This document shows positions 2,621-6,345 of a stretch of 6,345 bases of DNA, piece by piece. Below the pieces are notes generated by a model. It saw only the letters and a list, made by a program, of their open reading frames with translations. It did not search any database and was not told where the DNA came from. How positions within the stretch are numbered: the stretch's first letter is position 1; every line of letters starts with the position of its first letter. A program made the translations under genes and the position numbers. The DNA lies in the NCBI GenBank assembly GCA_027021085.1, contig JALUVB010000257.1, forward strand, positions 1-6,345. Direction: 5' to 3'. This stretch comes from a bacterium (GTDB lineage: Bacteria > CAIJMQ01 > JAADFP01).

Positions 2621-3109
2621 TTATCCAAGGGTTTTTTTCTTTTTAACGTATTCTACCAGCCCGCCGGATTCTGAGATTTCTCGCATGAAAGGCGGGAGAG
2701 GGATGAAGAAAATTTCTGTATTCCTGGAGGTATTCACTACTATTCCCTTTTCCAGGTTTACCTCTATCTCATCCCCGTCTAAGATTCCATCTGTGTTGCA
2801 TTCAATAAGCAGTAAGCCAATATTGATGGAATTTCTAAAAAATATCCTGGCGAAGGATTTAGCCAGTACTGCAGATACCCCGGCGATTTTGATTATCCTG
2901 GGTGCATGCTCCCGGGAGGAACCGCAGCCGAAATTTTCTCCCGCTACAATGAAATCACCTGGAGTAAGTTTTTTGACGAATTCAGGGTCTGCATCCTCCA
3001 TCACGTGTTTTGCCAGTTCCTTCAGATTATTTCTCAAGTGGAAATACTTCCCTGCTGCAATAAGGTCAGTGGAGATATTGTCTCCGAACTTGTGAGCTTT
3101 TCCTTTCAA
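2621..3109 (-). CDS. leuD: Aconitase-superfamily small subunit, LeuD-like (3-isopropylmalate dehydratase or relative)
   Basis: This is the swivelling subunit that completes the active site of the LeuC-like partner encoded just upstream. The pair would isomerise 2-isopropylmalate to 3-isopropylmalate, or citrate or homocitrate in related enzymes. Visible motifs are KFGDNISTDLI near the N terminus, the substrate-loop region GKYFHLRNNLKELAKHVMEDADPEF, the signature NFGCGSSREHAP and the structural AKSFARIFFRNSINIGL. Its 162 residues fit the short, archaeal-type LeuD/HacB family. I chose TTG 3109 because GAGAGG lies 6 nt upstream and the protein then begins (M)KGKAHKFGDN as relatives do. A TTG at 3136, 2 nt after the leuC stop, would add nine residues but has no ribosome site. 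The loop reads YFHLR rather than the YL-x-T form I associate with many isopropylmalate enzymes, so the substrate is uncertain. Confidence 0.88.
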   Translation of the reverse strand: MKGKAHKFGDNISTDLIAAGKYFHLRNNLKELAKHVMEDADPEFVKKLTPGDFIVAGENFGCGSSREHAPRIIKIAGVSAVLAKSFARIFFRNSINIGLLLIECNTDGILDGDEIEVNLEKGIVVNTSRNTEIFFIPLPPFMREISESGGLVEYVKKKKTLG

Positions 3110-3115
3110 AGTAAA

Positions 3116-3121
3116 CCTCTC
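3116..3121 (-). promoter_or_regulatory. Ribosome binding site deciding the leuD start
   Basis: GAGAGG on the minus strand lies 6 nt before TTG 3109. It is the only good Shine-Dalgarno match near the two candidate TTG starts of this gene and therefore favours the shorter protein. Confidence 0.6.
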
Positions 3122-3138
3122 TTTAACAAAATTCAAAA

Positions 3139-4389
3139 CTAACTATCTGTTTCCCGCGGGTCGGTCAGGTACCCGGTAAGAGCAGAGGCTGCACACGTGA
3201 TAGGTGAGGCCAGATAGATAGCGCCTTCCGGGTTGCCCATCCTGCCCTTAAAGTTCCGGTTGGCCGAGGAAAGACATGCTTCTCCGTCTGCCAGGACTCC
3301 CTGGTGTATTCCCACGCAGGGACCGCAGCCGGGAGGGAGAAGAATCCCCCCTGCTTCTATCAATGTTTTCCATACCCTCTCCTTCTCTCCCTCCAGGAAA
3401 ATTTTCCGAGAGCCGGGAGCAATAAGAAGGCGCGATTTTACTTTTTTCCCTTTGAGTATCCAGGCTGCTTTTGTGAAGTCGGACAATCTTCCCCCCGTAC
3501 AGGTTCCTATAAACACCTGGTCAATCTTCAAATTCTTTACTTCTTTCACCTTAAAGACATTATCCACGCTATGCGGGAGGGAAACCATGGGTTCCACCTC
3601 TTCTAAGTTTATATCAACTTTCTTTTCGTATGGGGCATCCACAGCGCAGGAAATTTCCCGGAAGTCGTTCTCTCTTCCCATGCTTATTAAATATTCCCGG
3701 GTAATCTCATCCGAGGGAAATAGCCCCGTCTTTGCTCCGCATTCTACCGCCATGTTCGAGATAGTTAGCCTGTCATCCATGCTAAGGCTTTTTACCCCTT
3801 CCCCGGTAAATTCCAGTGCCTTGTAAGTGGCACCAGAAGCCCCCAGTGCCCCTATGAGATAGAGAATTACATCTTTTGCGGTAACTTTTTCTTTAAGTCT
3901 TCCCTCCAGGTGGATGTTAAGGGAAGAAGGAACTTTCATCCAGACTTTACCCAGGGCTATGGCTACGCCGATATCAGTAGAGCCCATACCGGTAGCAAAA
4001 GCGGAGAGAGCGCCGGATGTGCAGGTGTGGGAGTCTGCTCCCACAATAATCTGCCCGGGGGCAGAATATTTTTCCACCATTATCTGGTGACATACCCCAT
4101 CTCCTTCTTCTCCTATCAGGCAGCCAATTTTGCCGCAAAATTCTCTTATAAGCTTGTGAGAATTTGCCAGTTCACTGCGGGGAGGAGGCGAGGCATGGTC
4201 AAGGAAAAAGACCACCCGGGAGGGATTAAATGCTTTCTCTATCTGTAGTTCCCGGAAAACTTTTATTGCCAGGGGACCCGTACCATCCTGGGCAAACACC
4301 CAGTCTGTGGGAAATATATATATTTTACCCGCTTCTACCTCTTTCCCGAGTTTTTCGGAAAGAATCTTCTGTACAAGTGTTTTTCCCAT
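3139..4389 (-). CDS. leuC: Aconitase-superfamily large subunit, LeuC/HacA-like [4Fe-4S] hydro-lyase
   Basis: This is the catalytic, cluster-bearing subunit of a two-subunit dehydratase with the leuD product. Its 416 residues fit the archaeal-type LeuC/homoaconitase group, which is shorter than the roughly 465-residue E. coli type. Motifs in order are the DHASP element (64-68), GEEGDGVCHQ (93-102), the substrate-binding GADSHTCTSGALSAFATG (117-134), LPHSVDN (271-277), the cluster cysteines Cys297 (GTCTGGR) and Cys355/Cys358 (PPGCGPC), and SANRNFKGRMG (375-385). The usual Asn after the first cluster cysteine motif (GTCTNGR or GSCTNGR) is Gly here. The ATG lies 13 nt after the stop of the synthase gene without an obvious ribosome site, which points to translational coupling. 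Isopropylmalate, homocitrate and citrate are all possible substrates, and sequence inspection cannot decide. Confidence 0.9.
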   Translation of the reverse strand: MGKTLVQKILSEKLGKEVEAGKIYIFPTDWVFAQDGTGPLAIKVFRELQIEKAFNPSRVVFFLDHASPPPRSELANSHKLIREFCGKIGCLIGEEGDGVCHQIMVEKYSAPGQIIVGADSHTCTSGALSAFATGMGSTDIGVAIALGKVWMKVPSSLNIHLEGRLKEKVTAKDVILYLIGALGASGATYKALEFTGEGVKSLSMDDRLTISNMAVECGAKTGLFPSDEITREYLISMGRENDFREISCAVDAPYEKKVDINLEEVEPMVSLPHSVDNVFKVKEVKNLKIDQVFIGTCTGGRLSDFTKAAWILKGKKVKSRLLIAPGSRKIFLEGEKERVWKTLIEAGGILLPPGCGPCVGIHQGVLADGEACLSSANRNFKGRMGNPEGAIYLASPITCAASALTGYLTDPRETDS

Positions 4390-4402
4390 GGAAGCAAAGC
4401 GG

Positions 4403-5632
4403 TTAAGGAGCGACGGTCATGATTTTTCTGGCAATCTCCGGGTAGCGGGCAATAAATTTCAACTCATCATCAGTAAGAGGCTTTTGCGTATGCACGTTGG
4501 CATATCTGACTAATTCCAGTATCTTGGTTGCTTCTCCTTCATCCTTGAATTCTATTTCCAGCTTACCGTAGACATTGCGAAAGCCTTTTATCCCGGAGTA
4601 TTCTCCCAAGGTAATCATTCTTCCGGTTTCAACCACCTCTGGCTCACCCCTGCCCAGTTCTTCAAAGTGGTATAACTCGTAGTTGCGCCAGTCTTTTAAT
4701 GCTCCGTCGGCATGTATTCCTGATTCATGCGCGAAGGCATTTGCTCCCACCCCGGGCTGGTTGATGGGGATAGGAACATCAAAAGCGTAGGAAGCATACT
4801 TGGCTATTTTCCAGGATTTGGAGAGGTCTATTCTCTCGTCTAACTGGTACCTGTCATGGAATCCGTTGGCTTTCTTAACTGCCAGAATTACAGAGACGAG
4901 GTCAGCGTTGCCTGCCCTTTCTCCCATGCCGTTGATTGTAGTGTTGATAAAAGCATCCATGCCTGCATCGTTGGCCGCCTTGGCGCCTGCCACTGAACAG
5001 GCTACTGCCATTCCTAAGTCATTGTGGCAATGAATTTCTATGGGGAGCTTAACTTCCTCTGCTAACTTGGCTACCCTTTCATAGATGGTGAAAGGAGAAT
5101 CGTATCCCAGGGTATCACAGTACCTGATGCGATGTGCACCGTGTTCTTTGGCGGCAAGAGAGAACTCTATGAGGTATTTCAGGTCCGTGCGTGCTGCATC
5201 CTCGGCATTCACCCCGATAATCTGCATGCCTCTTTCCTTTGCTGTGTCCACTGCCTCCGCCATTATTCTTATTACGTCGTCCCGGTTAAACTTACCCCTG
5301 AACTTACCCTTTATCATCTGGTCAGAAGTAGAGATGGATAAATTCAGGTTCTTTACCCTGGTAAGCTCAGTGGCACGTTCTACATCTTTTTTTATAGCTC
5401 TTACCCACCCGGAAAGCACTATGGGTTTTAAGACACCCATTTCCTGCAGCTCCAGGTTGGCATTGAGGTAGAAAATCTCGTGTTTGGTAAAGGGGAAGCC
5501 AAATTCACTCTGATAAACCCCCATTTCGTTAAGATACATATTTATCAGAGTCTTTTCCAGTTTAGCCAGACCCAACCGGGAAGTCTGGACGCCATCCCGG
5601 TTAGTAACATCGAGAATATAGATTTTAGCCAT
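4403..5632 (-). CDS. Homocitrate/Re-citrate/2-isopropylmalate synthase family protein
   Basis: This is a DRE-TIM metallolyase-superfamily enzyme that condenses acetyl-CoA with a 2-oxoacid. In its 409 residues the barrel starts with DVTNRDGVQ (Arg12, Asp13), the metal ligands are in HCHND (His201, His203), VNAEDAART lies at 141-149, NGMGERAGN at 234-242 and HESGIHADG at 302-310. It ends with a short helical subdomain and lacks the roughly 120-residue leucine-binding domain of LeuA. The AED-R, RYCDTLG and GERAGN segments are closest, from memory, to NifV homocitrate synthases and to the Re-citrate synthase group known from Clostridium kluyveri and Syntrophus; LeuA usually reads DTTLRDGEQ. The start at ATG 5632 lies 5 nt after the serA stop. 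A LeuC/LeuD pair follows directly, so its product is presumably isomerised next. The family is secure; the 2-oxoacid substrate (oxaloacetate, 2-oxoglutarate or 2-oxoisovalerate) is not. Confidence 0.88.
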   Translation of the reverse strand: MAKIYILDVTNRDGVQTSRLGLAKLEKTLINMYLNEMGVYQSEFGFPFTKHEIFYLNANLELQEMGVLKPIVLSGWVRAIKKDVERATELTRVKNLNLSISTSDQMIKGKFRGKFNRDDVIRIMAEAVDTAKERGMQIIGVNAEDAARTDLKYLIEFSLAAKEHGAHRIRYCDTLGYDSPFTIYERVAKLAEEVKLPIEIHCHNDLGMAVACSVAGAKAANDAGMDAFINTTINGMGERAGNADLVSVILAVKKANGFHDRYQLDERIDLSKSWKIAKYASYAFDVPIPINQPGVGANAFAHESGIHADGALKDWRNYELYHFEELGRGEPEVVETGRMITLGEYSGIKGFRNVYGKLEIEFKDEGEATKILELVRYANVHTQKPLTDDELKFIARYPEIARKIMTVAP

Positions 5633-5635
5633 AGT

Positions 5636-5640
5636 TCCTA
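5636..5640 (-). promoter_or_regulatory. Ribosome binding site of the synthase, overlapping the serA stop
   Basis: TAGGA on the minus strand includes the serA stop codon TAG (5640-5638) and lies 3 nt before ATG 5632. This arrangement suggests coupled translation of serA and the synthase. Confidence 0.5.
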
Positions 5641-6345
5641 CAAAATTATTGATTCTACCCTGTTAACTTCTTCTAACCCGGACAGTTTTTCTTTCACCTC
5701 ATCCGAAGGTGGTATATCCAGGGTTAGTATGGAGATTGCCTCTCCGCCTTTTTCCTTTCGATAGAAATTCATCTGGGCAATATTTATGTTTGAATCGCCC
5801 AGGATTTTACCAATTTTACCAATAAGTCCCGGCCTGTCAAGATTATAACAGAGAAGGATATTCCCTTCCGGGGCTATCTCTATGTTGTAATCGTCGATTT
5901 TTACCAGGCGGGGAAATTCCCTTCCCAGGAGAGTTCCGGACACGCTGTATTTCCCGGCCGAAGTAAGTGCTTCAACAATTATAAGTGAATTGAAGTCTTC
6001 ACTTCTGCCACTTTCCCGTTCCATGATTTTGATGCCTCTTTCTTCTGCCAGCATCTTGGCATTCACGTAGGTAATCAACCCCGGCTGCATTACTTCAAAC
6101 ATGCCTTTCAGTACTCCCGAAACCAGGAGAGAGTAATCTGATATCCCCATCTCTCCCAGGAACTCCAGGCGCAGTTCTTTTATCTGCCCCCTGCATAATT
6201 GCCCTACGAAAGAGCCCATCTTCTCGCTGAGGGAAAGGTACGGTTCTATCTGGTACCATTCTTCCTGCGGCACGTAGGGAAGGTTGATAACATTTCTGTA
6301 TATGGCATTTTTCAGCGCATCCACTATCTGCTGGGTGATTTCTAT
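5638..6345 (-). CDS. serA: D-3-phosphoglycerate dehydrogenase, C-terminal part (5' truncated by window edge)
   Basis: SerA oxidises 3-phosphoglycerate to 3-phosphohydroxypyruvate, the first step of serine synthesis. Only the last 235 residues are present. The frame is open to the window edge (IEITQQIVDALKNA), so the GTG at 6324 is an internal valine. The visible part holds the end of the catalytic unit (NAIYRNVINLPYV), the ASB regulatory domain at about residues 25-155 (LSLSEKMGSFVGQL, then VLKGMFEVMQPGLITYVNAKMLAEERGI), and an ACT domain at about 161-235 with DRPGLIG (170-176) and NINIAQM. This is the long, about 525-residue form; ACT domains in this family often bind serine, so feedback inhibition is plausible. 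The missing upstream part should contain the NAD-binding and catalytic domains. It is the first visible gene of the operon with the synthase and leuCD, an uncommon grouping for serine synthesis. Confidence 0.93.
   Translation of the reverse strand: MEITQQIVDALKNAIYRNVINLPYVPQEEWYQIEPYLSLSEKMGSFVGQLCRGQIKELRLEFLGEMGISDYSLLVSGVLKGMFEVMQPGLITYVNAKMLAEERGIKIMERESGRSEDFNSLIIVEALTSAGKYSVSGTLLGREFPRLVKIDDYNIEIAPEGNILLCYNLDRPGLIGKIGKILGDSNINIAQMNFYRKEKGGEAISILTLDIPPSDEVKEKLSGLEEVNRVESIIL

Follow-up and report, generated by a model that had tools for sequence, protein, structure and literature searches.

A serA-linked operon predicted to encode a Re-type citrate synthase and a two-subunit aconitase of LeuCD ancestry

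Re-citrate synthases and their possible partners

Re-citrate synthases have been described from Firmicutes, Chloroflexota, Thermodesulfobacteriota, and Ignicoccus, and they are often misannotated (PMC12016533). Omnitrophota MAGs encode either the Si or the Re type but never both (PMC8542988), and homologues from anammox bacteria share 55-58% identity with the Clostridium kluyveri enzyme (PMC8027424, PMC8862662). The Re-citrate synthase itself is therefore already known, including in Omnitrophota and anammox bacteria. The synthase described here resembles the C. kluyveri and Syntrophus enzymes, as these have been described, in that it is an HMGL-family protein, lacks the LeuA regulatory domain, and occurs where a Si-citrate synthase is missing and would be replaced. 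Enzymes of this kind are often mistaken for homocitrate or isopropylmalate synthases (PMC12016533, PMC8542988, PMC8027424). Whereas the H. modesticaldum gene stands alone (PMC12016533), the present one shares an operon with serA and the genes of a two-subunit hydro-lyase.

The aconitase superfamily is divided into AcnA, AcnB, mitochondrial/cytoplasmic aconitase, AcnD, homoaconitase, isopropylmalate (IPM) isomerase, and AcnX, and this classification includes no citrate-acting aconitase made of two subunits (PMC8184944). A text search of the literature, mostly without subscription papers, likewise found no description of such an enzyme. The part that seems undescribed is thus a putative two-subunit, LeuCD-derived aconitase as a regular partner of Re-citrate synthase. 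We propose that the operon very probably encodes the formation of citrate and then isocitrate, through a Re-type citrate synthase and a LeuCD-type two-subunit aconitase, and that leucine synthesis relies on other genes.

The operon and its synthase

The window is the whole of contig C257 (6345 bases) from a MAG of 1.93 Mb in 307 contigs that is 94% complete. In the ORF list, four minus-strand genes form a tight operon: the 3' part of serA (5638..6345), an HMGL-family synthase of the Re-citrate synthase type (4403..5632; 409 aa), a LeuC-type gene for a predicted aconitase large subunit (3139..4389; 416 aa), and a LeuD-type gene for the predicted small subunit (2621..3136; 171 aa as called; TIGR02087, GCGSSRE motif). 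The intergenic gaps are 5, 13, and 2 bases, respectively. The serA fragment, truncated by the contig end, encodes the C-terminal 235 aa with the phosphoglycerate dehydrogenase intervening domain and an ACT domain (PF19304 and PF01842 in Pfam) and matches positions 292-523 of TIGR01327. For leuD, the second TTG, at 3109 and closely preceded by AAAGAGAGG, is the likelier true start and would give a protein of 162 aa.

The original prediction of a single operon, with both hydro-lyase subunits directly downstream of the synthase, is borne out by the shared strand, the short gaps, and the recurrence of the order serA-synthase-leuC-leuD in two relatives of the same family (synthase 95% and 87% identical) and on the Omnitrophota contig L083. 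Chance arrangement is not a concern. In the window's phylum and in most Omnitrophota (loci L063-L134, e.g., L066:6321-9224), a serA gene immediately or a short way before the synthase gene is a conserved feature. Promoter and terminator scans of the window returned sites no commoner than in shuffled sequence. The plus strand carries genes for a glutamate-synthase-like NADPH oxidoreductase subunit and a pseudopilin-like protein (Pfam/NCBIfam); a 169-aa minus-strand ORF at 1832-2341 has the look of a membrane protein and no Pfam or NCBIfam match.

The synthase matches only HMGL-like and HCS_D2 in Pfam (PF00682 and PF22617) and therefore has no LeuA regulatory domain, as had been anticipated; an HMGL-type catalytic domain of this kind is a trait of Re-citrate synthases. 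Its signature DVTNRDGVQ (5585..5611, minus strand; residues 8-16) replaces the DTTLRDGEQ of NifV and LeuA, and the NifV-like segments noted earlier are present as AEDAAR (143-148), RYCDTLGY (170-177), and GERAGN (237-242). The signature occurs in 59/59 orthologues examined, the catalytic motifs HxH and GERxGN are retained, and a text search of the literature found no mention of DVTNRDGVQ. In a tree anchored by named NifV (from plasmid nif clusters), LeuA of E. coli and Buchnera, LysS, and CimA, the synthase groups with 29 sampled orthologues in one clade (support 100, long stem) that is distinct from all four families and lies on the NifV side; its exact attachment is unsure because the tree was built by a quick method and drew long-branch warnings. 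The plasmid records searched for such anchors contained no named Re-citrate synthase. Grouping with LeuA or CimA, which would have spoken against the original prediction, was looked for in this tree and is not seen. An actinobacterial homologue joins the clade at its base. The Nonomuraea gerenzanensis protein (L233:9959-11212) is 54% identical, has the same DVTNRDGVQ, and has no obvious TCA neighbors.

The link between the window synthase and proven Re-citrate synthases would run through the published identities of anammox homologues rather than through the window's own protein. A search of 392 Planctomycetota genomes for the anammox homologue gave five matches with no recognizable succinate-CoA ligase neighbors in their short loci, and these therefore do not connect to the published Kuenenia gene.

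Among NCBIfam models, NifV scores best on the synthase, and this match, together with the position of the clade on the NifV side, speaks for a homocitrate module, in which the synthase would supply homocitrate for the nitrogenase cofactor, alpha-aminoadipate lysine, or other chain elongation and LeuCD would be a homoaconitase. The arginine of the LeuD loop, also found in the loop of Methanocaldococcus homoaconitase, fits the same reading. The NifV score is nonetheless far under the cut-off (276 vs 463 bits), identity to named NifV is 30-35%, and NifV itself has DTTLRDGEQ and a nif context; AED-R and GERAGN are the features held in common. Homocitrate is used for nitrogenase or for lysine through alpha-aminoadipate. 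Nitrogenase (PF00148) is found in 0/7 genomes of the window's phylum and dapB, of the diaminopimelate route, in 7/7, so that either role is unlikely. We reject both a NifV identity of the synthase, on the score and the lack of nitrogenase, and a role in alpha-aminoadipate lysine synthesis, on the presence of dapB. A homocitrate module would also leave the genome without citrate synthesis, and the dehydrogenases linked to this gene set in related genomes carry isocitrate-type residues, with no linked homoisocitrate-type dehydrogenase. Likewise, the window proteins fall under the NCBIfam homoaconitase cut-offs and lack a homocitrate pathway context. They share two subunits and a loop arginine with the homoaconitases of methanogens and Thermus, but the loop of those enzymes is shorter (YLRT vs YFHLRNN in the window). 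Overall, we consider homocitrate very improbable. The original prediction had named citrate or homocitrate rather than leucine; its citrate part is upheld by genome content, paralogue split, neighborhoods, and isocitrate-type dehydrogenase residues, and its homocitrate part is not.

LeuC and LeuD paralogues

The same genome encodes a separate, full-length LeuA (761 bits on TIGR00973) and a CimA (758 bits on TIGR00977), both above curated cut-offs, along with LeuB, a distinct isocitrate dehydrogenase that is unlinked (contig C79), and exactly two LeuC-type large subunits (PF00330) and two LeuD-type small subunits. Neither a Si-citrate synthase (PF00285) nor AcnA, AcnB, or any further PF00330 aconitase-family large subunit was found in the 94% complete MAG. 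The suggested check of the genome thus returned every other gene sought (leuA, leuCD, and icd) except a Si-citrate synthase and another aconitase, and the opposite content, a separate citrate synthase and aconitase in a genome lacking further leucine genes, is not what this genome contains. A missing Si-citrate synthase beside an aconitase-type enzyme and isocitrate dehydrogenase is the pattern expected of genomes that rely on a Re-citrate synthase.

For comparison of the paralogues, 97 large subunits were collected, three of which are fused aconitases. In the tree, a single clade (support 100/99) unites 49 leucine-linked two-subunit proteins, whose gene neighbors are leuA, leuB, and the corresponding leuD, and the other 45 two-subunit proteins, including that of the window, neighbor isocitrate dehydrogenase or the synthase. 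Isocitrate dehydrogenase is a neighbor in 15/45 of the window's group vs 0/49 of the leucine-linked proteins, and LeuA or LeuB in one of the 45 vs 23 of the 49. The corresponding Fisher p of 6e-10 counts related genomes as independent, which they are not, and serves as description only. Exactly one LeuC of each group is present in 41/54 genomes. On the Chloroflexi contig L136, leuC, leuD, icd, and the synthase gene are adjacent. The sole LeuC of the isocitrate-linked group beside leuB is that of L147 (Omnitrophota). All 16 linked dehydrogenases (16/16), as well as the window genome's own unlinked isocitrate dehydrogenase, contain RSVNV..R, which we take to be an isocitrate-binding pattern from Ser113, Asn115, and Arg119 of E. 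coli isocitrate dehydrogenase; the LeuB of the leucine sets has G.LL..R.

These data bear directly on whether the operon is instead a second leucine set, with an isopropylmalate synthase free of its feedback domain and LeuCD as its isomerase. Family resemblance, the serA and amino-acid context, and 33% identity of the synthase to E. coli LeuA would agree with such a set. However, a LeuA above cut-off, LeuB, and a leucine-clade LeuC and LeuD are encoded elsewhere in the genome, the window LeuC belongs to the isocitrate dehydrogenase-linked group, and setting the operon aside would leave the genome without citrate synthase or aconitase. The synthase also scores under the curated cut-offs of the NCBIfam LeuA, CimA, and LysS models in every case and, with no regulatory domain and a second LeuA in the genome, does not qualify as LeuA; the window LeuCD, being outside the leuA/leuB-linked clade and having a different loop, does not qualify as an IPM isomerase. 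A leucine operon is rejected on the separate leucine genes and the LeuC grouping and, strongly disfavored, is extremely improbable.

The window subunits resemble the prokaryotic two-subunit isopropylmalate isomerase (TIGR01343/TIGR02087) in architecture, cluster cysteines, and GSSRE. In contrast to the GSCT and PTCG of LeuCD, the large subunit has GTCT and PGCGPC as its cluster motifs, the latter with the remaining two cluster cysteines (3316..3333, minus strand); the neighbors are isocitrate dehydrogenase and Re-citrate synthase rather than leuA and leuB. At the first cluster cysteine, the LeuC of the window's family (three genomes) reads GTCTGGR (3487..3507, minus strand), with Gly in place of the Asn of almost all relatives (G[ST]CTNG), a departure that counts against the preferred reading.

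Two-subunit isomerases owe their substrate preference to a loop region (PMC7308503). Most leucine-set small subunits have LVTT or LNT in this loop, and window-type subunits have HLR[SN]N (a few HLRGN or HLRND); in the window it is YFHLRNN (3026..3046, minus strand). By sequence comparison, HLR[SN]N resembles not the IPM loop but that of the fused aconitase in Geobacter-type genomes, P[FY]RSN. The fused enzyme (PRK07229/TIGR01342) has a related large-subunit part and this similar [FY]RSN loop, but it is a single chain of ~645 aa, is found here only in Geobacter-type genomes, and is distant in the tree. The window hydro-lyase also differs from the known single-chain aconitase subfamilies in having two subunits and falls under all NCBIfam aconitase equivalog cut-offs. 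In mitochondrial aconitase, a loop arginine, Arg580, binds substrate. The window subunits thus combine traits expected of a functional aconitase, namely cluster cysteines, GSSRE, a loop arginine, and linkage to citrate synthase and isocitrate dehydrogenase. The HLR loop does not mark the whole group, because many linked small subunits, in Omnitrophota and others, carry a second loop type, GRYKF... (compare the L136-type and L222-type LeuD); the arginine loop is therefore one of two solutions.

If the synthase indeed makes citrate, LeuCD might still be a broad isomerase for citrate, citramalate, and isopropylmalate rather than a dedicated aconitase. Dual-specificity two-subunit isomerases are known in archaea (cited in PMC8184944), and the presence of CimA means that a citramalate isomerase is also needed. 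The one-to-one paralogues of 41/54 genomes, with their different loops and neighbors, suggest specialization instead, and we regard a broad isomerase as rather unlikely.

Proposed route and its distribution

Under the preferred reading, a citrate synthase with a dedicated aconitase, the operon would account for the two opening steps of an incomplete oxidative TCA branch that leads from acetyl-CoA to 2-oxoglutarate. The HMGL-family, Re-type synthase would condense oxaloacetate and acetyl-CoA to citrate, and the LeuC/LeuD pair, a two-subunit aconitase of isopropylmalate-isomerase ancestry, would convert citrate to isocitrate, the large subunit presumably holding the [4Fe-4S] cluster and the small subunit providing the substrate-recognition loop. 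The isocitrate dehydrogenase of contig C79 would then complete this branch by forming 2-oxoglutarate, from which glutamate follows. Leucine would be made via the separate LeuA, the second LeuC and LeuD, and LeuB. We infer the substrates, stereochemistry, and physiological role from sequence, through gene content, paralogue split, linkage, motifs, and loop types.

More broadly, it is likely that a two-subunit aconitase regularly accompanies Re-citrate synthase in a number of uncultured anaerobic phyla, among them the window's phylum, Omnitrophota, Margulisbacteria, Chloroflexi, and Aerophobetes. Such an enzyme would constitute an unclassified aconitase subfamily with two loop solutions for one substrate; in the same likely scenario, it derives from LeuCD-type isomerases but lies outside their leucine-linked clade and has its own substrate loop. 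Many uncultured lineages appear to lack citrate synthase and aconitase, and these two holes in their central metabolism would thereby be filled. 'Leucine biosynthesis' annotations in such lineages probably denote TCA-branch genes, which would bear on predictions of leucine prototrophy and of the TCA cycle for the phyla concerned. The pairs of paralogues, in which each substrate has its own loop type, may also serve as a natural data set on specificity change in the aconitase superfamily.

The synthase is present in 7/7 genomes of the window's phylum, and orthologues with DVTNRDGVQ are spread over many uncultured phyla. PF00285 is absent from 44/50 genomes of other groups that hold an orthologue; the six that have it comprise five of Geobacter type and one from Aerophobetes. 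In the Geobacter-type genomes (among them L123, L124, and L128), the synthase occurs alongside one or two Si-citrate synthases, which counts against the preferred reading, and 3/5 also encode the fused aconitase.
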